A DNA stretch of 51,811 nt from Bacillota bacterium. Its GTDB lineage: Bacteria; Bacillota; Limnochordia; DUMW01. Position numbers and translations under genes: made by a program. The stretch is from positions 1 to 51,811 of the forward strand of contig DUMW01000007.1 in the NCBI GenBank assembly GCA_012839765.1. Reading direction: 5' to 3'. Below, piece after piece: positions 19,747 to 51,702 of this stretch. The notes beneath the pieces are model-generated. The model did no database searches, was not told the origin of the DNA, and worked only from the letters and a program-made list of their open reading frames with translations. The first letter of the stretch is position 1, and every line of letters begins with the position of its first letter.

Positions 19747-19770
19747 CACAGTCTGTAGGTGAAATCGAAT

Positions 19771-21144
19771 ATGGTTCAGCAAAGTAAAGGGCCACGGCCG
19801 GTGTTCGAGCCAGTGGTGGAACAGATCAAGCAGGGGATTATCTCCGGCAAGTACAAGCCCGGCGATGCCATCCCCTCGGAACGGGTCCTCAGTCGTCAAT
19901 TCAAGATCAGCCGGATGTCGGTGCGGAAAGCCATCGACACCCTAGTGCAAGCAGGATACTTGGTCAAGAAACCGGGATTGGGCACCTTTGTCCCCGATGA
20001 AAGCACCCGCCAGGAACAGACAGGGCAAGTGGAACTAACGGTGGAACACAATCCCTACCCAAGATCGGGATTGATCATGCGGATCATCGCCAAGAGCTTT
20101 GAACGACACAATCCCTGGGTGCGGATTCGCTTTGTCCCCAGCAGTGGATCCGCCGATGTGTTGTTCGGAGACGAGATCCGCCTCCGGGAGTTAGGCCAAG
20201 GGGGAAGTATCCTTCCCTTGGACCAGTACGTGGCCAAGGATTTGGAGCTAGATGCGTATTTCTCCCGACTCTTCACATTCTTGACCCATGAGGGCCATTT
20301 GTACGGTGTTCCGGTGGTCTGGTCCCCGGTGGTGGTATTGTACAACCGAGAGATCCTGGAAGAACTAGGTCTTGCTCCACCGTCTGATTCCTGGTGCCCT
20401 CGGGATCTTGTAGAACTTTGCAACGCGATCACTGACCCAGCGGAACGACGGTTTGCCTTTGGCTGGACCGAAAACTACAAACGTTGGGTCCCCTTTGTTT
20501 GGAACTGCGGGGGCCGGATCTATGACCAGGCCAAGGATCGCATAACCATCAGTGAAAAAGAAACCATCGAGGCCCTGGTTACCTATCGCAAGCTTTTGGA
20601 ACACAGCCCCGCCTTCCGGATCAAACGGGACTTTTTCAGCAGCGAACAGCTTTTCGTGGCCGGTGCGGCCGCCGTGGTGCTAGGGACGGCCTATCTGGTG
20701 GGGGAACTGAAAAGGGGTCGTCTCCAGTTCGGCTGTGCACCCATGCCTACTATAGAAGGTGTCCCGCCGGTCAGCGCAGTGGCCCTGGAGGCTTTGGGCA
20801 TCAGTGCCGGCTCAGAGAAAAGGGATCTGGCCTGGGAATTTGTGAAGTTTGCCCTGACCGAGGGACAGAGGGAATATGCCCATTGCCGCTATGGACTACC
20901 GGTACTTAGACAGTGGGAGGATGAGCTTTGCAAAGAAGAGCCATACTACCGGGTGTTTTATGCCCAGGAACCCCACCTGGCCTCCGTTTGGCCCTTACCC
21001 GACGTTCGACTCTTGGCCATGTTTAGCAACAGCATGACCATGCTCTGGTACGGACAATCGGAGGTGGAAAACGCCGCTCAGGAAGTGGAGGCCGTGATAA
21101 ACCTGGCCCGCCAAAGAAATATGTATCAATTGCCCTTCGGCTGA
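19771..21144 (+). CDS. Transcriptional regulator: GntR winged helix fused to a solute-binding-protein domain
   Basis: 457 residues from ATG 19771, which has AGGTGA eight bases upstream (GTG 19759 overlaps that site). Residues about 10-75 are a GntR winged helix-turn-helix (IIDGKYKPGD-type turn, PSERVLSRQFKISRMSVRKAIDTL, GTFVP). Residues about 90-450 are a family-1 extracellular solute-binding fold (LTHEGHLYGVPVVWSPVVVLYNREILEELGL, LGISAGSEKRDLAWEFVKFALTEGQREYA). There is no signal peptide or membrane segment, so the binding fold is cytoplasmic and must act as the ligand sensor in place of the usual UTRA/FCD domain. It lies in the same operon as a true binding protein (17053) and a fucosidase. 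It probably controls this operon in response to an imported oligosaccharide. Confidence 0.85.
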   Translation: MVQQSKGPRPVFEPVVEQIKQGIISGKYKPGDAIPSERVLSRQFKISRMSVRKAIDTLVQAGYLVKKPGLGTFVPDESTRQEQTGQVELTVEHNPYPRSGLIMRIIAKSFERHNPWVRIRFVPSSGSADVLFGDEIRLRELGQGGSILPLDQYVAKDLELDAYFSRLFTFLTHEGHLYGVPVVWSPVVVLYNREILEELGLAPPSDSWCPRDLVELCNAITDPAERRFAFGWTENYKRWVPFVWNCGGRIYDQAKDRITISEKETIEALVTYRKLLEHSPAFRIKRDFFSSEQLFVAGAAAVVLGTAYLVGELKRGRLQFGCAPMPTIEGVPPVSAVALEALGISAGSEKRDLAWEFVKFALTEGQREYAHCRYGLPVLRQWEDELCKEEPYYRVFYAQEPHLASVWPLPDVRLLAMFSNSMTMLWYGQSEVENAAQEVEAVINLARQRNMYQLPFG

Positions 21145-27095: not shown

Positions 27096-27128
27096 AGGGG
27101 GTTGTCCCACCGCCAGGACAATCCCCCT
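27096..27128 (-). terminator. Terminator at the end of the deacetylase-like gene
   Basis: AGGGGGTTGTCC (27096-27107) pairs with GGACAATCCCCCT (27116-27128) with one bulged base. It overlaps the stop codon of the minus-strand gene at 27127. Confidence 0.55.
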
Positions 27129-28491
27129 AGAATTCCCTTTGGACATTGGTAAGAAATCGGTCCTGCTCACTGTCCTGAAAATAGCAATAATCCAGGTTTC
27201 CTTCCCTCATTAATCGCTGATACTCCTCCTCCGCATCTTTGCGACACTGTGGACAGGCCAGCCAAGGTACCACCACGGCGCCGATCCGGGTGGACCTCCC
27301 ACTCATCCTTAAGATCCCCACCTGCCTGGTAGCGGTGGAATAGATATGGCGCCAGCCCGAACACTGTGGGCATAGACGAATCCTCTCCTGTTGCTCTTCA
27401 AAGATCCCATCGGTGTCGTAGTAAATCTGGCGCTCTCGGTGGTAAAAGGGTCCATCACCAAAGGCCCGTGAGTGCCCCGGATCCTGGCGGGACTCCCACA
27501 GGACTCTCACCTGGGCGACGGTGTCCCGAATGGCTGCAGTAACGGCTTTACTTTGGGTCACTTTGGTCTCGTCCCAGTCCGGTTCTCGCACCTGGCTATA
27601 GTCCAACCCCCCAAGGGCCAAAAGGATCCCGACGTTTACATAGGGCAGGGCCCCTTCGATGGAATAGCCGCCCTCTAAGATCACGATATCGGGATTGAGC
27701 ATTTCTGTAAGCCGGGCGTAACCTTGGGCACTGAAGCGCATGTTGGTCAGGGGATCCGAGTAATGGTTATCTTGGCCTGCGGCATTGATCACCAGATCCG
27801 GCTGCCACGCGGACAGAATCGGCATCACCAGTTCCTCCAAGACATAAAGTATGCCTGCATCCCCTGTCCCCGGCGGAAGGGGAATATTCACCGTCTGACC
27901 CCGGGCTGCCGGGCCACCCCGTTCGAAAACGCCTCCGCTTCCGGGATAAAGAGTCCGGCCATCCTGGTGGAGGGAAATATGGAGGATATAGGGATCGTTG
28001 TAGAAAATGTCCTGGGTACCGTCGGCATGGTGGGCATCGGTATCCACGATGGCAATTCTCATCTGGGGTCCGAAACGATGTCGGATGTGTTCCACCATGA
28101 TGGCCTCGCTGTTTACCGTACAAAAGCCCCGGGAGCCGTGGACAATACGCATGGCGTGGTGCCCCGGTGGGCGCAGGAGGGCAAAGGACCGTTCCACCTT
28201 GCCTTCCAAGACTAGATCCGCAGCCAGCATCGCGCCACCCGCGGCGATGAGATGGGACTCGGTAACAAGACTGGCCACTGAAGGGACACAAATATGAGCC
28301 CGCTGGACGTGTTTGGTCGCGGCGACCGTGGGACGGTATTCCTCAATGCCTTCAATATCCAGCAAGCCTTCTTCCATAATCTGGTCCCGGGTATAAAGCA
28401 GCCGTTCCTCCCGCTCGGGATGATCCGGAGTGATGCACCAGTCAAAGGCAGGGAAAAACACAAGTCCCACGGACCGTTTTGCTTTTAGCAT
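27127..28491 (-). CDS. Histone-deacetylase-family amidohydrolase with C-terminal zinc ribbon
   Basis: Zinc-dependent deacetylase of the arginase/deacetylase superfamily (AcuC / acetylpolyamine amidohydrolase relatives), 454 residues. Active-site residues are all visible: H111-H112 in RPPGHHA, D152 and H154 in DTDAHHADGT, D241 in AGQDNHYSDPL and the catalytic Y276 in EGGYS. A C-terminal extension of about 110 residues has two CPQC pairs, probably a structural zinc ribbon, unusual for this family. ATG 28491 overlaps the hydantoinase stop by seven bases, so the two are translationally coupled. The substrate is probably a small acetylated or acylated amine; it is not known. Confidence 0.88.
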   Translation of the reverse strand: MLKAKRSVGLVFFPAFDWCITPDHPEREERLLYTRDQIMEEGLLDIEGIEEYRPTVAATKHVQRAHICVPSVASLVTESHLIAAGGAMLAADLVLEGKVERSFALLRPPGHHAMRIVHGSRGFCTVNSEAIMVEHIRHRFGPQMRIAIVDTDAHHADGTQDIFYNDPYILHISLHQDGRTLYPGSGGVFERGGPAARGQTVNIPLPPGTGDAGILYVLEELVMPILSAWQPDLVINAAGQDNHYSDPLTNMRFSAQGYARLTEMLNPDIVILEGGYSIEGALPYVNVGILLALGGLDYSQVREPDWDETKVTQSKAVTAAIRDTVAQVRVLWESRQDPGHSRAFGDGPFYHRERQIYYDTDGIFEEQQERIRLCPQCSGWRHIYSTATRQVGILRMSGRSTRIGAVVVPWLACPQCRKDAEEEYQRLMREGNLDYCYFQDSEQDRFLTNVQREF

Positions 28492-30209
28492 TGAGAATCA
28501 GCTCCTTCTGACCCAAAGACCCCGTGGACCCTATACACCTTAGGACGTACCTGGGCCCGAATGGTGTGGATCTGACCTACTGTCTGAAAGCCCCGCACCA
28601 CATTGAAGCTTTCGGCTTCCACCACATAGACATCGTCACAATCAGCTAATCCCAACTCCTGGGCATATTGTCTACCCTGGGCAATGGCTTCCGCCCGGGC
28701 CCGTTTTCCATCGAAAAGAAGTGCCCGGGGAATCCTCTGTCGAATACCCCGTTCCGGGACGGTAAGTACTTCCTGCTCTGTATCCGCGTGCAAGGTGATA
28801 CTGGCGGTGGGGCGGGCAGCCGCAGCCCCAATCGCGTTGGCACCGGCATGGGCCGGTAGGATCTCCCAGGGTAGACCAAGTTGCCCCGCTGCAAGGGGTA
28901 CAAAGACCCCAGCGGGGGCTCCCAAGCCAATGATCCTTCGGGGTCGAATATCCGGTGGGGCAAGGATCTCCGAGATGGTATAGACCGGCACACAGGCCAA
29001 GTGATCATAAATATCCCGAATGGCCTGGGCTAGCTGCTGGGCGAAGGCGGTCATGATCCCTTGGGCCACGTCCTGCCAGTCAAGCCCCCAGGGTTTGCCA
29101 AAACACTTTAAAGACTCCACAGCCCGGTCCCGGCTGCCCAGGGGAGCCAATCCCAAGGCCACCGCGGCATCGATGGGGGTAGGTCCTGTTCCACCCAGGG
29201 CCGCAGGCAAACCCGCTCGGGTGGGACCCAAGCGAAAATCAAGCTGCTGGTCCTCGGTGGGTACCACCTGTACCGTACTGTCGCCTCCCAGGCCAAGGGA
29301 ACGGCTGAACAAAGCCGGCACCAGGGTACGGTAACCGGCAATTTCGGCTCCCTTACGTTCAAAAAGCGGTTCACCGTTGACAATTACGGCGATATCGGTG
29401 GTAGTACCACCGATGTCCACCACTACTGCGTTATCTTGGGGATGCTGGGTAAGCGCCAAGGCCGCCATGATACTGGCTGCAGGCCCCGAAAGGATGGTCT
29501 CCACCGGGCGCAGGATTGAATCCTCGAGGGACATGGTTCCTCCGTCGGCTTTGAGGATCCGCACCTCCTTGATGACCCCATGGTCTGCCAATACTTGTTG
29601 GATGGTCTGCACAAAGTGCAGCTGTTGTCTTGCTACCCGGGAATTCAGGTAGGCAGTGGCAATCCGGCGCGGAAAATTCGAGCGCCCCGAAAGACGATGG
29701 CCTAAGGTGATCTGGCTGAACGGGACTCCACTTTTCCGCACCACCCCTTGCACAGCTTCCTCCTGGCTGGGATTACGGTGGGAGAACTTACCCACAATGG
29801 CCAGGGCCCCCATTCCTTCGGCATTGACCTTCCGTACCGCCTCCAATACTTCCTGGGGATCAATGGGAGCAACCTCCCGTCCCCGGTGGTCCACATAGCC
29901 CCGGAGCTGGTGCAAGGGAATAGGCAAGGCCAGCTCCTGCAGATTCACACCCGGACCGGGAATCGCCAATACAGCGGTAGGCTCACCTTTCCCTTCTACA
30001 ATGGTATTGGTGGACAGGGTAGTGGAAAGATGCAGTGCCACCGGTTCCTCACTGTGATAGGCCCGGAGGATCTCCCTGAGGGCTTTCGTTGTACTTGCCA
30101 AGAGATTCGCGTGATCTGTGGGTGTTTTGGCCATGGCCAACACCCGTCCCTGGGAAATCAAGGTTGCGTCGGTGTTGGTGCCCCCCACATCGATACCGAT
30201 AATCGCCAC
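28485..30209 (-). CDS. Hydantoinase/oxoprolinase HyuA-family ATPase
   Basis: ATP-dependent amidohydrolase subunit of the hydantoinase A / N-methylhydantoinase / 5-oxoprolinase family. GTG 30209 is chosen because the family start IIGIDVGGTNTDATLI follows at once; longer frames back to 30482 add about 90 residues unlike the family. The 574-residue protein shows LHLSTTLSTNTIVEG, ILKADGGTMSL, ILSGPAASIMAAL and VVDIGGTTTDIAVI (second phosphate-binding loop of the ASKHA ATPase fold). No HyuB partner is encoded; instead it is coupled to the deacetylase-like gene. Substrate unknown. Confidence 0.85.
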   Translation of the reverse strand: MAIIGIDVGGTNTDATLISQGRVLAMAKTPTDHANLLASTTKALREILRAYHSEEPVALHLSTTLSTNTIVEGKGEPTAVLAIPGPGVNLQELALPIPLHQLRGYVDHRGREVAPIDPQEVLEAVRKVNAEGMGALAIVGKFSHRNPSQEEAVQGVVRKSGVPFSQITLGHRLSGRSNFPRRIATAYLNSRVARQQLHFVQTIQQVLADHGVIKEVRILKADGGTMSLEDSILRPVETILSGPAASIMAALALTQHPQDNAVVVDIGGTTTDIAVIVNGEPLFERKGAEIAGYRTLVPALFSRSLGLGGDSTVQVVPTEDQQLDFRLGPTRAGLPAALGGTGPTPIDAAVALGLAPLGSRDRAVESLKCFGKPWGLDWQDVAQGIMTAFAQQLAQAIRDIYDHLACVPVYTISEILAPPDIRPRRIIGLGAPAGVFVPLAAGQLGLPWEILPAHAGANAIGAAAARPTASITLHADTEQEVLTVPERGIRQRIPRALLFDGKRARAEAIAQGRQYAQELGLADCDDVYVVEAESFNVVRGFQTVGQIHTIRAQVRPKVYRVHGVFGSEGADSQC

Positions 30210-30686
30210 GTTGCTGCACCGTCCTTTATCCAGTCTCCTTCTGGTATATATTAACATGTTCTGAAAGGCGCAAGCCAACTCCTGCTTCTCATTCAACGAG
30301 GCAACATACCTGAGAGTCACATCGTCCCAGGACCTGTGTCCCAATCCAACCTTCCCGGTTTCCCCATAAAAGACGGTACAGGCAAACTTAGTAGGGTTTT
30401 GACTACATAAGCGAGACAATTCGCTTAGTTTTCCCCTAGGACTTTGGTAGTATTGCGTTACAAATTGTGCTATGATTGACACAAGCTTCCAAGAGCCAGG
30501 AGCGGACTAGTTAGTCAAATCACGGCCACAACGTCGTTCTATACCATTGCCGGCATAGCCTGCCTGTGTCATAATATAACGCGAATGTGTCCTTGGCACA
30601 ATCGTTTCGACAGATCCAGAAGGTCTTCTACACCGGGGATGCCCATGACCGGCGAGACGACGCTGGTGGGAAGGGATGGTGAATCC
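30210..30686. promoter_or_regulatory. Divergent intergenic region between the hydantoinase and dehydratase genes
   Basis: About 480 bases. On the minus strand TTGCGC and TATATA with a 17-base spacer (about 30245-30273) could drive the hydantoinase operon. For the plus-strand gene I see TTGACA at 30476 without a good -10 and a TAATAT near 30572 without a good -35, so its promoter is unresolved. GACTA-gt-TAGTC near 30505 is a small palindrome. Confidence 0.35.
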
Positions 30687-32570: not shown

Positions 32571-32729
32571 CCGGAGACTGTCTTCGGACTGTCACCGCCG
32601 CAATAAATATTAAACTAAACCCAATTAAGGTAAAAGGAATTCACAATCGTTAGGCGAAGTAACAGGGCTATATCGTGTCAAGCAGTTTGGTCTAGTTGGA
32701 TGGAATACCAGTAAGGAAGGATGTAACCG

Positions 32730-33605
32730 ATGGATCAAAAGGTAAAAGTGCTTCTGGATACGGATCTTGGTTCAGACATCGATGATGCCCTGTGTCTGGC
32801 CTATTTGCTCACTGAACCCCGGTGCGAGTTATTGGGAATTACCACCGTTAGCGGTGACACCCAGGCCCGGGCCATGATTGCCGACGCCCTTTGCCAAAGT
32901 GCTGGGGTGGAAGTACCCATCTATGCTGGACGCCGGGAAGTGCTCCTCACAGGCAGGGGGCAGCCCCATGTTCCCCAGGCGGAGGTCTTGCCGGAGGTTC
33001 CCCACCGGACGGAATTCCCGACAGATTACCTGCAATTCATGCAGCGCACGATCCGGGAGAATCCCGGAGAAGTGACTCTCTTGGCGGTGGGTCCCATGAC
33101 CAACGTGGGACTGCTTTTCGCCATGGATCCGGAGTTGCCCAAATTACTCAAGAGAACGGTACTGATGATCGGTCAGTTCCTTACCGAGGGACGGGAGTGG
33201 AATGCCTTGGTGGATCCCATCGCTTCAGCGTTGGTCTACCACTACGCGGAGTGCCTTTCCATCGGTTTGGACGTGACAAGAAGATGTGTCATTTCCGCGG
33301 AGGAAGCCAGGGAGAAATTCACTGGGCCCATTTTGGGCACAGCCCTGAAGTTTGCCGAGATATGGTTCCGCCAGCGGGACCGGATTACTTTCCACGACCC
33401 CTTGGCGGCCACGGTGATCTTCGAACCGGATCTATGTACCTATAGGGACGGTCACGTCACCGTGGAAATCGCTGATCCCGCCATCGAGGGGACGACCTAC
33501 TGGTCCGAAAACACCAACGGTAACCCCCACCGGATTGCGGTGGAGGTTAACCCAGAAGCCTTCTTTGACCACTATTTTAGAACACTCAGTAAAGCCTCAT
33601 CCTGA
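32730..33605 (+). CDS. Nucleoside hydrolase (IunH/RihB family)
   Basis: Calcium-dependent N-glycosidase of the inosine-uridine hydrolase family, 291 residues, ATG 32730 after AAGGAAGG. The N-terminal LLDTDLGSDIDDALCLAYLL carries the calcium-binding aspartates, WNALVDPIASA the central NxxxDP motif and TFHDPLAA the C-terminal catalytic His-Asp. All are canonical, so this copy should be an active ribohydrolase or related N-glycosidase. It is one of three members of the family in this window; the other two (the 45342-47045 fusion and 47172-48092) deviate at these motifs. Confidence 0.92.
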   Translation: MDQKVKVLLDTDLGSDIDDALCLAYLLTEPRCELLGITTVSGDTQARAMIADALCQSAGVEVPIYAGRREVLLTGRGQPHVPQAEVLPEVPHRTEFPTDYLQFMQRTIRENPGEVTLLAVGPMTNVGLLFAMDPELPKLLKRTVLMIGQFLTEGREWNALVDPIASALVYHYAECLSIGLDVTRRCVISAEEAREKFTGPILGTALKFAEIWFRQRDRITFHDPLAATVIFEPDLCTYRDGHVTVEIADPAIEGTTYWSENTNGNPHRIAVEVNPEAFFDHYFRTLSKASS

Positions 33606-45159: not shown

Positions 45160-45345
45160 TTACGGCCGTCGTGCCCGAAGTGTTTGGACGATTTCTACAG
45201 ATAGCTTTCGGTTTTCCTGGGCAGAAAAATCGACACGGTCAACACTTCCGCCGTTAATGACCGTGTGACGGTCTGAAATGGCCCTTACCCCCTGTTGGGC
45301 AGAACGGGCATATACCCAGTAGATGAACGAAGACTGGTCATTCAT
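45160..45345 (-). CDS. Small ORF overlapping the fusion-regulator stop (ATGA)
   Basis: A 61-codon frame whose ATG overlaps the TGA of the AraC fusion gene (ATGA), the usual sign of translational coupling. The product starts MNDQSSFIYWVYARSAQQG and matches no family I know. It may be the start of a decayed gene, since another open frame continues in a different phase beyond 45160. No independent ribosome binding site. Confidence 0.25.
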   Translation of the reverse strand: MNDQSSFIYWVYARSAQQGVRAISDRHTVINGGSVDRVDFSAQENRKLSVEIVQTLRARRP

Positions 45346-47045
45346 GACCGGTTAGCAAGCCGTTGATAGACCCGGGGACTGATCCCCGTCTCCGCCTTAA
45401 AGGCTCGACTGAAGACCTGTACCGACGAATAACCGAGGCGGTGGGCGATCTCTTTCACCGACAGATGTTCCAACTCCAAAAGGGTGCGGGCCCGCCGCAT
45501 CTTCAAAGACCGGTGATACTGAATCGGCGTGATTTGCAGTTCCTGTTTAAACAGCCGGATTAGGTCAAACTTGCTCACCTGAAACTCCTTGGCTAGCAGA
45601 TCAAGGGTGATGTTTTCTTCCACATGCTGTTCCAGGAACGTCTTCACGTGTTCAATCATTTCCTGGGTACTGCTGGGATCACCCTTGGACCGTTCCGCTA
45701 AACTGCACAAATGTGCGATGAGGGCGAGGAGCTTGCTGTTACAAAGGAACATATTGCCGAAAGAAGGGCGCATCCAGAGGTCAATAATCTGTTCCACCCG
45801 GGACTGCACATAACTGGGGTCCGGCAAAGAGAGCACCAGTCCTCCATCCACTAAAGGCAGGGTATAATCCTGTCTCTCCCCACCTTGCATTTGCCAGCAT
45901 TCAAAATAGAGCATGGAGACAGCCATCCCAGAAGTGGTGGATAACTGATGGGGAGTGTCCGGCGGAAGATAAAGGATGTCTCCGGATTGAAAACTTGTGG
46001 TGGTTCCATCCCTTGCTTCCACCATCCCTTCACCATCCAGGACATAAGCCAGGATGTGCTTGGCCGTGGTGGACCGCCGCATCTGCCAATCCGCAGGATA
46101 AGTTATCACCAAGGCGTCCCGGATGACCACCAAAAGCTCCACAGGATACCACTCCGGGGTCACCACATGTTCCGTAAGACGGGAAACCAGGGTATTCAAA
46201 TAGCGGCCCCGATCCACATCGATGGCCATCTGCACCGGCCAACCATCCATCGCCCGATAGAGCACCCCGTAGTTGGCGCCCGGTTCTGTCTTTACCCGAA
46301 CACGGACCGGCTCCAAGGTCACAACCGAAGGATCGCAAAGATACATCACCGTGAGCGGGTCATACATGATGGGGGGTGTGTTCCCCATCGCCTTAGCCCA
46401 GTGTTGGTACAGGGTCATGAGAAAGCTGGTGCCCGCCAAGCCAGAGTTGAACAGTATTCCCCGTTGGGCCTGGGTTAGGATACAACCCAGGGTCACTTCC
46501 CGACCGATCAACACAATGGGAATTCCCGAGGAGAGGACAACCTCTGCAGCCTTTGGATCTTGGCTGATGTTCCATTCCGGTAGTCGTTGGGTCACCCAGC
46601 CGCCCATGAGCACCACCTGACGAAAGGACGTGACCCGATCGGGGTAGCGACGGAGAAAATCTGCAAGATTTGTTAAGGGTCCGTTGGCCACGTAGACGAT
46701 GCCCCGGCGTTGGGCTGTGACCTTTTCCAGCCACTCGAGGGCGGAGAGGGGACTAGCCTCCCCTAGGGGCACTTTGGGGATAGCCTCTTCCATCTGGGTG
46801 AAGGTATCGCACTCCGCCGGGGGTTCCCCCTGGTAGCGGGGCGATAGCCCAATGCTAACGGGGACGTGGAGCTCACCGTAGGCACCCAGCAAGCGCCGGG
46901 CAATTAGAGCCCGGGCCCGGGGGAGATAAAAGGTGGTGGTAACGCCCAACAGTTCAATCTCCGGAGAATTCACCGCCAGAGCAATGGCGAAGGCATCGTC
47001 AATGTTGTCCCCGATTTCTGTGTCGATAACAACCGGAACTCTCAA
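45342..47045 (-). CDS. Fusion regulator: nucleoside-hydrolase domain, cupin domain, AraC helix-turn-helix
   Basis: 567 residues from TTG 47045, which follows GGGGTGA by four bases and gives the family start MRVPVVIDTE; a TTG at 47093 has no ribosome binding site. Residues 1 to about 305 are an IunH-type nucleoside-hydrolase domain (DTEIGDNIDDAFAIALA, GVTT, VANGPLTNLADFL, WNISQDPKAAE, MYDPLTVMYLCDP). About 325-430 is an AraC-type cupin (VLDGEGMVEARDG, SGDILYLPPDTPHQL). About 470-567 is an AraC domain with two helix-turn-helix motifs (ITLDLLAKEFQVSKFDLIRLF; LSVKEIAHRLGYSS). In the hydrolase domain the calcium-ligand Asp is Glu (DTE for DTD) and the catalytic His of HDP is Tyr (YDP), so it is probably a sensor rather than an enzyme. 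It is divergent from another nucleoside hydrolase gene. Confidence 0.88.
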   Translation of the reverse strand: MRVPVVIDTEIGDNIDDAFAIALAVNSPEIELLGVTTTFYLPRARALIARRLLGAYGELHVPVSIGLSPRYQGEPPAECDTFTQMEEAIPKVPLGEASPLSALEWLEKVTAQRRGIVYVANGPLTNLADFLRRYPDRVTSFRQVVLMGGWVTQRLPEWNISQDPKAAEVVLSSGIPIVLIGREVTLGCILTQAQRGILFNSGLAGTSFLMTLYQHWAKAMGNTPPIMYDPLTVMYLCDPSVVTLEPVRVRVKTEPGANYGVLYRAMDGWPVQMAIDVDRGRYLNTLVSRLTEHVVTPEWYPVELLVVIRDALVITYPADWQMRRSTTAKHILAYVLDGEGMVEARDGTTTSFQSGDILYLPPDTPHQLSTTSGMAVSMLYFECWQMQGGERQDYTLPLVDGGLVLSLPDPSYVQSRVEQIIDLWMRPSFGNMFLCNSKLLALIAHLCSLAERSKGDPSSTQEMIEHVKTFLEQHVEENITLDLLAKEFQVSKFDLIRLFKQELQITPIQYHRSLKMRRARTLLELEHLSVKEIAHRLGYSSVQVFSRAFKAETGISPRVYQRLANRS

Positions 47046-47123
47046 AGGATCACCCCGCGCAATATATGCTAACAGCGTGCCAATCCAAGCCAAAGGGGAG
47101 TGGGCTGAGAAAAATGAAATATT

Positions 47124-47139
47124 TAGTGTATTAACACTA
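47124..47139. promoter_or_regulatory. Operator-like inverted repeat in the divergent promoter
   Basis: TAGTGT and ACACTA with a four-base centre, between the fusion regulator (minus) and the nucleoside hydrolase operon (plus). TATAAC at 47138 overlaps it and could be a -10 for the plus-strand operon. Likely the binding site for the divergent AraC-type fusion or another regulator. Confidence 0.5.
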
Positions 47140-47171: not shown

Positions 47172-48092
47172 GTGACCTCTGTTCACAAGATCCTGATTGA
47201 TACGGACATCGGCAACGACATCGATGACGCCTATGCTTTGGCCTTTGCCCTCATCCATCCCCAACTGGAAGTACTGGGGATATCCACCGTGGATCATCAT
47301 GTAGAACTCCGGGCTCGGCTTGCCCAGACCATCGTAAAGACCACCGGAAAAGACATTCCCGTCACAATCGGTGCCGAAGGCTCACCTACGAAAACAAGAA
47401 CACCTCATCTGACGACCCAACTGGCTTGGGCCGCGGAACACCTATCCACCGCGACTACATATCCTTTGTCTTCCTGGGAGTATTTCAACCAGGTGGCCCG
47501 GGAACACCCCGGCGAGATCACCCTCGTCTGTCTCGGACAGCTGACTAACGTGGCCATCGCCTTAGACCTATATCCTTCCCTCAAGGAAAACCTCAAGGGA
47601 CTGGCCATCATGGGTGGAGAGACGGTGTATTTCCGCCGTGAACACAACTTCGCCAATGACTACCTGGCCGCGGACCGGGTGATCAGCTCCGGGATAGAGA
47701 CCTTCCTGGCCACCTGGAGTGTGAGCAAACAACTGACTTTAGACGAGATAACCCGTCAACGATTCAAAGCTAAAGGGGGCCCCATGTTGGAACTGTTGCT
47801 TACCCTCCAGGACGTATGGGGATATCAACCGGTGCTTTACGACCTTTCGCCCTTACTTTGGTTGATTGAGCCCGGTATCTTCCAAACGGTGCCCATGCAC
47901 CTGCGGGTGGAAAGTGTGGGAATGTTTACCCGGGGCTGCCTGATAAGTCTAGAAAAACATGCGACAGGATTACCCATCGATGAGTGCGTTCCCTATGGTT
48001 TCAGTTACCAAGAATCCCCGGAAGTGTGGGTAAGTCAAGACATGAACGTTGCGCAAGCCAAGGAAGTTTTCGTCCAAACCCTGTTGGGCTAG
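47172..48092 (+). CDS. Nucleoside-hydrolase-family protein with divergent active site
   Basis: 306 residues from GTG 47172, which follows AGGAGGT by nine bases; the ATG at 47148 lies upstream of that site. The calcium motif ILIDTDIGNDIDDAYALAFAL is canonical, the middle motif is HNFANDYLAADRV, but the C-terminal catalytic HDP is LYDL. It may use a substrate other than ordinary ribonucleosides. It is first in an operon with a sugar-binding protein and a DUF4832 protein, and divergent from the regulator that carries a related domain. A role in cleaving an N- or O-linked pentoside-type substrate is inference. Confidence 0.85.
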   Translation: MTSVHKILIDTDIGNDIDDAYALAFALIHPQLEVLGISTVDHHVELRARLAQTIVKTTGKDIPVTIGAEGSPTKTRTPHLTTQLAWAAEHLSTATTYPLSSWEYFNQVAREHPGEITLVCLGQLTNVAIALDLYPSLKENLKGLAIMGGETVYFRREHNFANDYLAADRVISSGIETFLATWSVSKQLTLDEITRQRFKAKGGPMLELLLTLQDVWGYQPVLYDLSPLLWLIEPGIFQTVPMHLRVESVGMFTRGCLISLEKHATGLPIDECVPYGFSYQESPEVWVSQDMNVAQAKEVFVQTLLG

Positions 48093-48172: not shown

Positions 48173-49399
48173 ATGCAAAAGCGGTTTACTGTTCTGGTCC
48201 TTTGTCTGCTAGTGGGATTGTTGGTCAACTCAGTGGCATCGGCGAAGACTGTTGTCACCGTGTGGGCCTGGAGCGATGTCCTAGGAGAATTCATTGCGCG
48301 CAAGGCCGAGGAATTCAATCAAATGCAGGATGAGATCGAGATCATTGTTGAGCAGCACCCCTTCGACGGGTACTTGGACAAACTGCAAATGGCCCAGGTC
48401 AGTGGGGTGGCCCCGGAGATTTTGCGGGGTGGTTTTGAAGGCTTGATTTCCCCTTACCCCGACGATTTCTACGCCCCCAGTCTGGTGGAACACATGAAGA
48501 GTCAACAGTTACCCTTCTTTGAGGATTTCATCGCCGAAGACGGGAAGGTCTATGCCTATCCCTTCAGTCTGTGGACCACGCCCCTTTGGTACAATCGGGT
48601 TCTGTTTGCCGAAGCCGGCCTGGGAGATCAGGATGTGCCCAAAACCTGGGACGAACTGATCCAAGTGGCGAAGAAATTGACAAAAGTAGGGGCGGACAAT
48701 CAGGTGGTCCAGTATGGATTTGTCACGGAACCTACCGATTTTCTCCAAGTCTGGTTGCCCCAAGCCGCCCCCGACTATTACCACACCGGTGACCGGCAGG
48801 CCACTTTGGTGGGCACGGGGGCCGTTGATGCCTACCGCTTCTTCCTGGATCTAATAGAAAACCAACTCATCCCCTGGCCCGTTACCGAATGGTGTGGTAC
48901 CAAGTTCCTCAACCAGACCGCGGCGATGATCATGGTGGGTAGCTGGTTCTACGGTACAGCCCAACAGGCCACCTTTGATTGGGCTATCGCACCCCAGCCC
49001 CGGCCCACCCTGGATGCACCTTACGGTGCCACCTGTATTGCCTCGGACTGGCGGTTTGGCTACGGTATCGACGAAGGGTTGAAACAGGCCGGGGCCGAAT
49101 TTCTCCGTTACGTGTACAGTGAGCCCAATTCGGTGGAATGTGCCTTATCCACCGGTCTGCTGCCGGTCCGACTGGAGTATTACCAAGCACCAGAGCTGGC
49201 GGAAAACCACTTCTTCCAAGTCTGTGCCCAAATACTTCCCCATTCCACGTACAAGTTGGATGGAACCGTATGGGACACCGTCTGGAATGCGTTAAGCGGT
49301 GCCACCAACACCGCTCTGTGGGAACTGATGCATCCCACCCAGGCGGTAACGTTGATGGAAAAGCAGGTCAATACCGCCTTGACCGACTACTACCGCTAA
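48173..49399 (+). CDS. Sugar ABC transporter extracellular binding protein
   Basis: Family-1 solute-binding protein, 408 residues from ATG 48173 after AAAGGAG. Type I signal peptide ending SVASA-K (residue 24), no lipobox. The mature part starts KTVVTVWAWSDVLGEFIARKAEEFNQM. Typical internal motifs are GKVYAYPFSLWTTPLWYNRVLFAEAGL, VPKTWDELIQVAKKLT and AAMIMVGSWFYG. It is 80 bases after the nucleoside hydrolase. No permeases adjoin, as for the binding proteins at 3476 and 17053. Confidence 0.9.
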   Translation: MQKRFTVLVLCLLVGLLVNSVASAKTVVTVWAWSDVLGEFIARKAEEFNQMQDEIEIIVEQHPFDGYLDKLQMAQVSGVAPEILRGGFEGLISPYPDDFYAPSLVEHMKSQQLPFFEDFIAEDGKVYAYPFSLWTTPLWYNRVLFAEAGLGDQDVPKTWDELIQVAKKLTKVGADNQVVQYGFVTEPTDFLQVWLPQAAPDYYHTGDRQATLVGTGAVDAYRFFLDLIENQLIPWPVTEWCGTKFLNQTAAMIMVGSWFYGTAQQATFDWAIAPQPRPTLDAPYGATCIASDWRFGYGIDEGLKQAGAEFLRYVYSEPNSVECALSTGLLPVRLEYYQAPELAENHFFQVCAQILPHSTYKLDGTVWDTVWNALSGATNTALWELMHPTQAVTLMEKQVNTALTDYYR

Positions 49400-49407
49400 A
49401 CCTTGCC

Positions 49408-49431
49408 GGGTCCCCCTTTTCCGGGGGACCC
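49408..49431 (+). terminator. Hairpin between the binding protein and the DUF4832 gene
   Basis: GGGTCCCCC / GGGGGACCC, 9-bp stem, six-base loop TTTTCC. It lies between two genes of the same direction and may reduce read-through or stabilise the upstream message. Confidence 0.6.
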
Positions 49432-49449
49432 ACCTTGGGAGGTGTCCCT

Positions 49450-51702
49450 ATGGCCCGAAGGGTCCTATTGGCCTTCTTAATTCCCATCCTGTTGTTGGGT
49501 ACTGGTAGGGAGGTATGCGGGAGAATGGTAAGTGTTTATCCCCAGGAAACCGACGAAGTCTTTTCTAATCCTCTCATGGGCTGGTGGTATATTGATAACG
49601 CCATTCCAGGACACATGGACGCCGGTCGTTCGTTACCCTATATCAAGAACGGCACCTCTTGGGAGCTGGTGGACCATGTGGCCATCTTGTCCGCCTGGGG
49701 GGCCATCGAGGTGGAACCGGGTCGCTTCGATTGGAGCCTCATCGACGAGGCGGTAGAGTTTTGGACAAGCCAAGGCAAGCGTATCCACTTCCGAATCTCC
49801 ACGGATCCCATGATCATGCCCCATGTAGGTTTTGTCATTGGTGCCCCCCAGTGGCTGTATGACCTCGGGGTCCCTTACAAGGTGAAGGACGGAGCGGGGT
49901 GGGGGAAAGAAGCGGAATGTGCCTACCCCGACTATACCCATCCTCTGTATGTCACCCATTTGAAGAGATTCTTGGCAGAATTTTCCGGGCGGTTCAAGGA
50001 CCATCCGGCGGTGGAACTGGTACAGCTGATGGGATATGGGGCATGGGGGGAGTGGCACAGTGGGTATGATTACCCCACCCTGGAAAAACGCCTTGAAGCC
50101 CTGCAGATCATCATCGACGCCTGGTCCGAAGCCTGGGCGGGAAGTAATGTAATCCTGGTGCTCTCCAACTCCTACGAATGGCAAGAGGAGCTGACCCCCT
50201 ATGGCATCTCCATCAATCACTGGCCTAAGCCTAGCTATGAAGAATATGTACGGGCCTCCGCCTTCGACTACGCCTATTACCAAGTGGAAAACATCGCACT
50301 AAATCGCAACGGCCTATCCAGCTACGTACATGATCCCTATGACGGTCGACTGATGCTGGAATTCTTTGACCGCACACGTAAACCCATCTCCGGGGAAATC
50401 GCCGGTTCTTTGGGTTTGTATCAAAACCTTCACGACGGCTACAATCCCCGCCGGGCCATCGATGAGGCCCTAAACTACCACGTCAATTACCTGATGACCC
50501 TGGGATGGGATATTACCGCCTTCAATCTTGCGAAAAACCCCAACGTGGATTCGGCCCTATACTTTTACAACCAGGAATACAACCGGCTCATTCCCTATGG
50601 CCTACGGTGGATGGGTTATCGTTTGGTGCTCACCCAAGCCCACTTCCCCGGGGTAGCGGCGCCGGGCGAAACCTTTACCCTCATACATGCTTGGGAAAAC
50701 CGGGCCGTGGGCAGGCTGTATAGGAAATATCCCTTGGGTGTCTACCTGCTTCGGGATAATGAACTAGTCTTTTCGGCTATAGATGAAAGCTTCGACCCGA
50801 CATATATCGTAAGCGGAAGCACCTATGAATACCAAACCCAAATCACCCTGCCCGAGGATCTTCCCACCGGCGAATATGATCTTTACATCGCCCTAGTGGA
50901 TGAGCACCAGCAGCCCGCGATTCGGCTCCCCATAGAAGGGCACGATGGTCAGAACCGCTATCTTTTAGGAAGAATACAAGTCAAGGAAGAGGTTCCCTTA
51001 CCAAGTCTTGCCAATCCCACAAGGCACCTTCTGTTCACAGAGGATTTTGAGTCTGGAAAACCAGCAGACTCCGGTCTGCGCGTCATCAGTGGGGAAGTGG
51101 AGGCTACTGGGCACAGTCCCCTCACCGGTCAATATACCTTTACGGGAAGCTCCACCGGACCCAGGGGAGACCTACTAGTTGCCGGTGCCAAGTCCCTGGG
51201 CCTAAAGGCCAATGGCACCTATGTGATCAGCTTCGACTATCGTGCCCTTGCGAACCAAGCAAGCTTTCCCGATAACTTTCCCGCATACTACTTCCTTGCC
51301 CGCAGCCGCCAAGGTGGCCTTGGGGGACTGCGCGCCTATCAGACTTGGCAGGATCAACCGGAACTTCCTTGGGCCCGCAAAACCATCCTGCTGACCTTGG
51401 GTCCCTATGATGACTACGAGTTGGTCTGGGGAGCTGACCCGCCAGGGATCCTCTCCATCGACAACCTGCGGATCGAGGAAGTGGACCCGGCCATAGTGGT
51501 ACTCCATGAAGGGTTCGACGGAGCAATCCACCCGGGACTAGTTCTTCACGACCAGGCCCACATTGAGACCCGGAACGCCGTTGTTGGCAGTGGTTCCCTA
51601 GCCATGGCACAAGACTTCGGGCAATTACCGATGGCGATGCAGTGGGGTTTTCTGGAAGACGATTGTCACTATCTTTCCACGGACCGAGTGAGTCAAGCAT
51701 AA
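49450..51702 (+). CDS. Secreted DUF4832-family glycosidase-like protein with C-terminal binding domains
   Basis: 750 residues from ATG 49450, with GGGAGGTG five bases upstream; the frame is open further left but overlaps the previous gene. Signal peptide (about residues 1-24), then a TIM-barrel-like domain (about 30-380) resembling GH42/beta-galactosidase-type barrels: NPLMGWWYIDN, WGAIEVEPGRFDWSLIDEAVEFW, GYGAWGEWHSG with a likely catalytic Glu, and SGEIAGSLGLY. A DUF4832 domain follows (about 385-515: LPTGEYDLYIALVD, RLPIEGHDG, YLLGRIQV). A jelly-roll binding domain comes next (about 528-685, ending LSIDNLRIEEV). A second copy begins at about 690 (LHEGFDG) but stops after about 60 residues, so the protein may be truncated. 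Substrate unknown. Confidence 0.8.
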   Translation: MARRVLLAFLIPILLLGTGREVCGRMVSVYPQETDEVFSNPLMGWWYIDNAIPGHMDAGRSLPYIKNGTSWELVDHVAILSAWGAIEVEPGRFDWSLIDEAVEFWTSQGKRIHFRISTDPMIMPHVGFVIGAPQWLYDLGVPYKVKDGAGWGKEAECAYPDYTHPLYVTHLKRFLAEFSGRFKDHPAVELVQLMGYGAWGEWHSGYDYPTLEKRLEALQIIIDAWSEAWAGSNVILVLSNSYEWQEELTPYGISINHWPKPSYEEYVRASAFDYAYYQVENIALNRNGLSSYVHDPYDGRLMLEFFDRTRKPISGEIAGSLGLYQNLHDGYNPRRAIDEALNYHVNYLMTLGWDITAFNLAKNPNVDSALYFYNQEYNRLIPYGLRWMGYRLVLTQAHFPGVAAPGETFTLIHAWENRAVGRLYRKYPLGVYLLRDNELVFSAIDESFDPTYIVSGSTYEYQTQITLPEDLPTGEYDLYIALVDEHQQPAIRLPIEGHDGQNRYLLGRIQVKEEVPLPSLANPTRHLLFTEDFESGKPADSGLRVISGEVEATGHSPLTGQYTFTGSSTGPRGDLLVAGAKSLGLKANGTYVISFDYRALANQASFPDNFPAYYFLARSRQGGLGGLRAYQTWQDQPELPWARKTILLTLGPYDDYELVWGADPPGILSIDNLRIEEVDPAIVVLHEGFDGAIHPGLVLHDQAHIETRNAVVGSGSLAMAQDFGQLPMAMQWGFLEDDCHYLSTDRVSQA

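Follow-up and report, generated by a model that had tools for sequence, protein, structure and literature searches.

An AraC-family regulator in Bacillota that carries a nucleoside-hydrolase-fold domain without its catalytic base

Near one end of a contig from a Bacillota bacterium of the class Limnochordia, one reading frame joins what looks like a complete nucleoside hydrolase (NH) to what looks like an AraC-type regulator, and this raises the question of what an enzyme fold is doing at the head of such a protein: is it genuinely part of it, does it still work as an enzyme, or has it become the part that recognizes a ligand? The term window is used here for the whole stretch of DNA analyzed, i.e., the 51,811 nucleotides of contig DUMW01000007.1.

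The fused gene and its relatives

The gene and its domains are located as follows.

45342–47045, minus strand: NH-cupin-AraC fusion regulator, 567 amino acids, TTG start (open frame, Pfam domains, 11 homologous fusions)
46194–47045, minus strand: pseudo-nucleoside-hydrolase domain, residues 1–284 (PF01156 E 5.9e-42, PDB matches, column counts)
45720–46094, minus strand: AraC-type cupin domain, residues 318–442 (AraC_binding PF02311 E 1.3e-8, Cupin_2 E 2.2e-7)
45360–45596, minus strand: double helix-turn-helix (HTH) AraC DNA-binding domain, residues 484–562 (HTH_18 E 2.8e-21)

The preliminary description, made from sequence alone, had claimed that one frame holds an NH fold, an AraC cupin, and two HTH motifs, and this claim is upheld by the open frame, the Pfam matches, and a structural model. 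The frame is unbroken and without an internal stop; it starts at TTG 47045, preceded by GGGGTGAT, and its first codon aligns with the start codons of the homologues (alignment A1). The NH profile PF01156 is nearly complete, with profile positions 1–295 of 297 matched to residues 5–282, and the C-terminus is matched by HTH_AraC (E 3.8e-15) in addition to HTH_18. The PF02311 match of the window protein lies above the cut-off, while in some homologues the Pfam signal for the cupin is weaker or absent. The AlphaFold2 model is confident (mean pLDDT 90.2, pTM 0.68), and linker residues 298–302 are its sole part with pLDDT under 50. When searched with Foldseek, the NH half of the model matches nucleoside hydrolases from Gardnerella, plants, E. 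coli (RihA), and Crithidia with E values of about 1e-17 to 1e-19 (5e-19 among them), the TM score, normalized by target, being ∼0.8 against both RihA and the Crithidia enzyme. By its HTH and cupin, this protein is a member of the AraC/XylS family; by profile and fold, it is also an NH-fold protein.

Regarding the possibility that an assembly or frame error has fused adjacent NH and AraC genes, two circumstances speak for it, namely that the draft assembly is fragmented (121 contigs) and that the divergent neighbor likewise belongs to the NH family. Against it stand eleven more fusions, each a single frame, which come from nine additional genomes of this class: these homologues are about 35% identical over their full length, none has an internal stop, and only one is truncated, at a contig end. 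Moreover, the fused NH domains form a clade apart from the stand-alone NH genes of the neighborhood. The homologous fusions rule out a frame error or chimera in practical terms, and this explanation is all but excluded; the loss of a stop through a sequencing error and the occurrence of the two halves as separate genes in relatives, both of which had been named beforehand as findings that would refute the idea, were not met with, the latter in the sense that no relative with separate NH and AraC genes in place of the fusion was found among the genomes searched.

The fusion is present in 10 of the 73 genomes of the class, the window's own included, and amounts to 12 proteins, three of which belong to one genome (G004). 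The genomes that bear it span five families, f1, f3, f5, f8, and f13, with the window's family counted. In a maximum-likelihood tree built from 96 NH domains, all 12 that come from fusions group in one clade with support of 100/100, which fits a single origin. Outside the class, no fusion was found in about 380 genomes sampled from the rest of the phylum, nor in a second phylum draw that overlapped the first at least partly. A scan of genome contigs with an alignment of the 12 members recovered full-length NH-plus-HTH frames solely in the genomes already known; it relied on two peptide patterns characteristic of these proteins, and an unrelated NH-AraC fusion elsewhere could have escaped it. 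Single-protein scans of the genome-contig and viral-contig collections gave no relatives, and none of the 1261 plasmid records with matches covered 80% of the query.

A probably disarmed active site with its pocket retained

The reference for the active site is RihA, whose calcium is bound by Asp10, Asp15, Asp241, the carbonyl of Thr124, the 2' and 3' hydroxyls of the ligand, and a water (PMC2898832). Asp10 is the general base as well as a calcium ligand; Glu164, Asn166, and Asp241 hold the ribose, water, and calcium, with Asn166 helping to hold the water and Glu164, together with Asn158, binding O5' (PMC2898832). The equivalences given below are drawn from shared motifs and not from structural coordinates, and in the column counts related rows are not independent, so that weight is placed on the spread over five families and not on the Fisher value computed from the counts.

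In the window protein, the residues of note are E10, D16, D17, T125, E157, N159, Y228, and D229. It reads D8-T-E10 where DTD is expected and Y228-D-P where HDP is expected, as the preliminary description had stated; its emphasis on the loss of the histidine as diagnostic fails for the family, because the HDP histidine is kept in 8 of the 12 fusions and the diagnostic loss is that of Asp10. At this position, aspartate is found in all 83 readable stand-alone NHs and in none of the 12 fusions, which have asparagine (six), a deletion (three), or one each of glutamate (the window protein), arginine, and histidine. The position of Asp15 is occupied by glutamate in seven of the 12. In addition, the GG..E loop, which carries Asn158 in RihA, has exactly seven residues in every fusion versus mostly 11–14 in the stand-alone NHs, and the shortened loop has acquired the invariant residues W150, Q153, and P156; the GN substrate loop is gone from all 12. 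The equivalents of Asp14, Thr124, Asn166, and Asp241 are invariant throughout the fusions, and that of Glu164 is glutamate in all except one, where it is aspartate.

With Asp10 lost from every member and the pocket residues invariant, the signature of the family is loss of the catalytic base with retention of the binding pocket, not the change of histidine to tyrosine. As a pattern of residues this is shown, whereas the binding of a ligand and of calcium is inferred. In the same way, the fusion lacks the active-site signature of a working NH, which argues against a fully active hydrolase, the third finding that would have refuted the idea; that it does not hydrolyze is itself an inference from the residues.

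A referee may ask whether the protein is instead a trigger enzyme, in which the NH domain still cleaves a riboside, slowly or of an unusual kind, and the regulator reports turnover. PutA and BirA are trigger enzymes of this sort. In favor of this view are the histidine retained in most fusions, the glutamate of the window protein at the Asp10 position, which is still an acid, and the conserved pocket. Against it, the general base is asparagine, arginine, histidine, or deleted in 11 of the 12 fusions and aspartate in none, and the view must also accommodate the Asp15-to-Glu changes and the missing GN loop. We regard it as unlikely.

A second alternative is that the NH domain is a mere oligomerization scaffold and the cupin the only sensor. 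RihA and similar NH enzymes form tetramers (PMC2898832), and in AdpA, an AraC-type regulator, the DJ-1-like domain, also an enzyme fold, has been described as a dimerization domain (PMC8994273). A scaffold would have no need of invariant pocket residues, though, and conservation is higher in the NH domain than in the cupin: mean pairwise identity among diverse fusions is 39% for the NH domain, 28% for the cupin, and 46% for the HTH, so that the NH domain approaches the DNA-binding domain, which argues that it is functionally important. The scaffold reading is thus improbable as well. The reading that we prefer, also that of the preliminary description, is that an enzyme fold has been recruited as the sensor of an AraC regulator, and it is supported by conservation, i.e., by occurrence in five families with the base lost in all members and the pocket kept. 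The accompanying claim of two sensing domains, NH and cupin, remains an inference.

Neighboring genes and a candidate operator

The genes and sites that accompany the fusion in the window are the following.

47172–48092, plus strand: divergent stand-alone NH-family gene, likely GTG start behind AGGAGG (PF01156 E 9.5e-41)
48173–49399, plus strand: sugar-type ABC solute-binding protein, encoded second in the divergent operon (SBP_bac_8 E 4.2e-23, SBP_bac_1 E 2.6e-20)
49450–51702, plus strand: DUF4832 or weakly GH42-like protein, encoded third in the divergent operon (PF16116 E 6e-17; GH42 E 5e-4, below cut-off)
32730–33605, plus strand: second stand-alone NH gene, with both DTD and HDP preserved (residues, tree)
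47059–47096, minus strand: candidate operator CCTTTN8TTGN8TTAN7TTGC, TTG(C) boxes 21 bp apart (f5 matrix, exact genome match; no binding data)
32600–32637, minus strand: second candidate operator, upstream of the second NH gene (f5 matrix, exact genome match; no binding data)

The contig stops at 51811, just past the third gene of the divergent operon. The preliminary description had placed a "true" NH gene at the head of this operon, which holds in part: the gene is of the NH family and keeps DTD, but its catalytic histidine is replaced (YDL) and its branch in the NH tree is long, so that "true" is not secure. The operon NH of genome G060 (L107:4634–5770) likewise lacks the histidine, with WDI in its place. 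The second NH gene shares a clade with the f5 NH genes that lie divergent from the fusion; as a separate observation, it shows MIGQ at a position where nearly all others show MGG.

The preliminary description had also proposed a domain search across genomes to see whether the fusion is conserved and lies beside NH and solute-binding-protein genes. A stand-alone NH gene is directly divergent from the fusion in the window and in six f5 loci, most of which have ABC transporter genes close by; three (L027, L029, L030) also have a GH127-type protein, the family having been tested for L029 only and assigned to the other two by sequence likeness. In G060, the divergent genes encode first a solute-binding protein, then an NH and a weakly GH43-like protein, and near the G004 copies and the G022 fusion there are solute-binding proteins and, within their short contigs, no NH gene. 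Since the neighboring transporters look sugar-type and not nucleoside-type, we infer that a nucleoside is no more likely to be the ligand than a pentofuranoside.

Two other loci of the window are recorded here for themselves: 19759–21144 encodes another fusion regulator, a GntR HTH with a solute-binding-protein domain (PF00392 + PF01547), and at 27127–30482 a histone-deacetylase-family protein overlaps a hydantoinase-A-family gene (minus strand).

Alignment of the divergent promoter regions revealed a shared block of 38 bp, which is put forward as a candidate operator in the absence of binding data. The scoring matrix was built from six f5 sites only, with 500 dinucleotide shuffles per region as the null, and no shuffle reaches the score of the window site. 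The same matrix also detects a site before the G060 fusion and before two of the three G004 copies (L034, L036), again with 0/500 each, and in all the candidate operator precedes the fusion in four families, f1, f3, f5, and f13; it finds no significant site at L033 or L035, and the f8 fusion (G022) and one of the three G004 copies are without one. The site at 32600–32637 is the second-best matrix site in the window, and 60 shuffled windows contain none as good; as the gene that follows clades with the divergent f5 NH genes, it seems that gene and site have remained together.

The genome-wide search was done with an IUPAC pattern and not with the matrix. At up to one mismatch, the pattern has only two matches in the 2.56-Mb genome, the two sites listed above, both beside NH genes. 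The pattern was fixed after the sites were known, and those of its hits that lie at fusion promoters therefore give no independent support; the result from the matrix is independent. Two more exact hits of the pattern took no part in its construction: one lies before a family-5 solute-binding protein (G007:C217) and the other in a broken locus (G004:C225). By eye, this locus (L108, positions 1–1538) is apparently a decayed operon, with DUF4832 and solute-binding-protein pieces resembling the products of 48173–51702. For every site with an identifiable target, motif and target are on opposite strands.

In family f5, the site is immediately adjacent to the -35 box of the fusion-gene promoter (-35 TTGAAT, -10 TATAGT, assigned by eye), which suggests positive autoregulation there. 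Unlike this arrangement, the window site lies ∼13 bp before the fusion start codon, and autoregulation may there be different or repressive. A perfect palindrome, TAGTGT-ATTA-ACACTA, occupies 47124–47139 and overlaps what is probably the -10 element of this operon's divergent promoter, that of the NH operon. It was set aside as the site of the fusion, being the sole exact copy in the genome and absent from the intergenic alignment of relatives; it may be the site of another repressor.

Proposed mode of action and significance

What the sequences show is the fusion together with its conservation, its residue pattern, its gene neighbors, and the conserved site. We consider it likely that the protein is a one-component AraC-family regulator with a pseudoenzyme NH as main sensor, controlling NH/sugar-ABC operons, probably in response to a pentofuranoside; the ligand, metal binding, dimer, and direction of regulation are inferred, without binding or expression data. 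Points against it are the two fusions without a significant operator site (f8 and one G004 copy), the lack of an NH gene in the short contigs of the G004 copies and G022, and the position of the window site, which differs from that in f5. According to this model, a pentofuranoside or nucleoside imported by the neighboring ABC transporter would be bound, uncut and perhaps with calcium, in the NH domain, whose pocket for the hydroxyls of the sugar, and probably for calcium, has been retained. The signal would pass from the NH domain through the cupin and linker to the HTH pair, and the two double HTH domains of a dimer would shift their seating on the tandem operator. The divergent NH/solute-binding-protein operon would thereby be switched on, as would the second NH gene in the window genome, and the regulator would tune its own expression.

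Among known one-component regulators, AraC and RhaS of the AraC/XylS family likewise combine an AraC_binding cupin with a double HTH beside an operon probably controlled, but the fusion carries in addition, at its N-terminus, a full-length NH domain (about 285 residues). The half-sites of AraC stand in tandem 21 bp apart, and the TTG(C) boxes of the candidate operator, its putative half-sites, have this spacing too. AdpA has an enzyme fold (DJ-1/PfpI, a GATase-1-like domain) N-terminal to its AraC HTH (PMC8994273), as the fusion does, and GbdR and FtrA also carry a DJ-1/PfpI domain in this place; the NH fusion differs from all three in its unrelated fold and in additionally keeping a cupin. 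With the group I enzymes RihA, RihC, and Crithidia IU-NH, it has in common the fold and the ribose/calcium pocket, while the fusions lack the catalytic base and the GN loop and are joined to a DNA-binding domain. ROK repressors (Mlc), NrtR Nudix regulators, and Btr, with its substrate-binding-protein domain, reuse a pathway fold as sensor; their sensor folds are others, and so, except in Btr, are their DNA-binding domains. The principle is therefore not new, as enzyme-fold domains on AraC regulators are known (AdpA, PMC8994273). The NH sensor fold is new as far as our literature search reached: the preliminary description knew of no characterized regulator with this architecture, and we found no description of an NH-AraC regulator in the open-access literature searched, most subscription papers being outside its reach.

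A bolder reading, for which we see as much reason to hesitate as to believe, is that these proteins form a one-component regulator class of a new kind. In it, a calcium-dependent hydrolase, disarmed at its base and kept as a ribofuranoside receptor, would be coupled to a second sensor, the cupin, and would control its own enzymatic cousins; the transition from enzyme to sensor would be complete, and enzymes related to the sensor would live on in the operons that it regulates.

If the model is correct, it would offer a way to find the substrates of the many NH-family genes that lie beside sugar transporters and glycosidases, and a furanoside biosensor would be possible. The NH fold would join the enzyme folds that have become gene regulators, the change being clearly marked at the molecular level by the lost base and the kept pocket, and, because the regulated neighbors include stand-alone members of the same fold, the family would make a tidy case for the evolution of a sensor from an enzyme.
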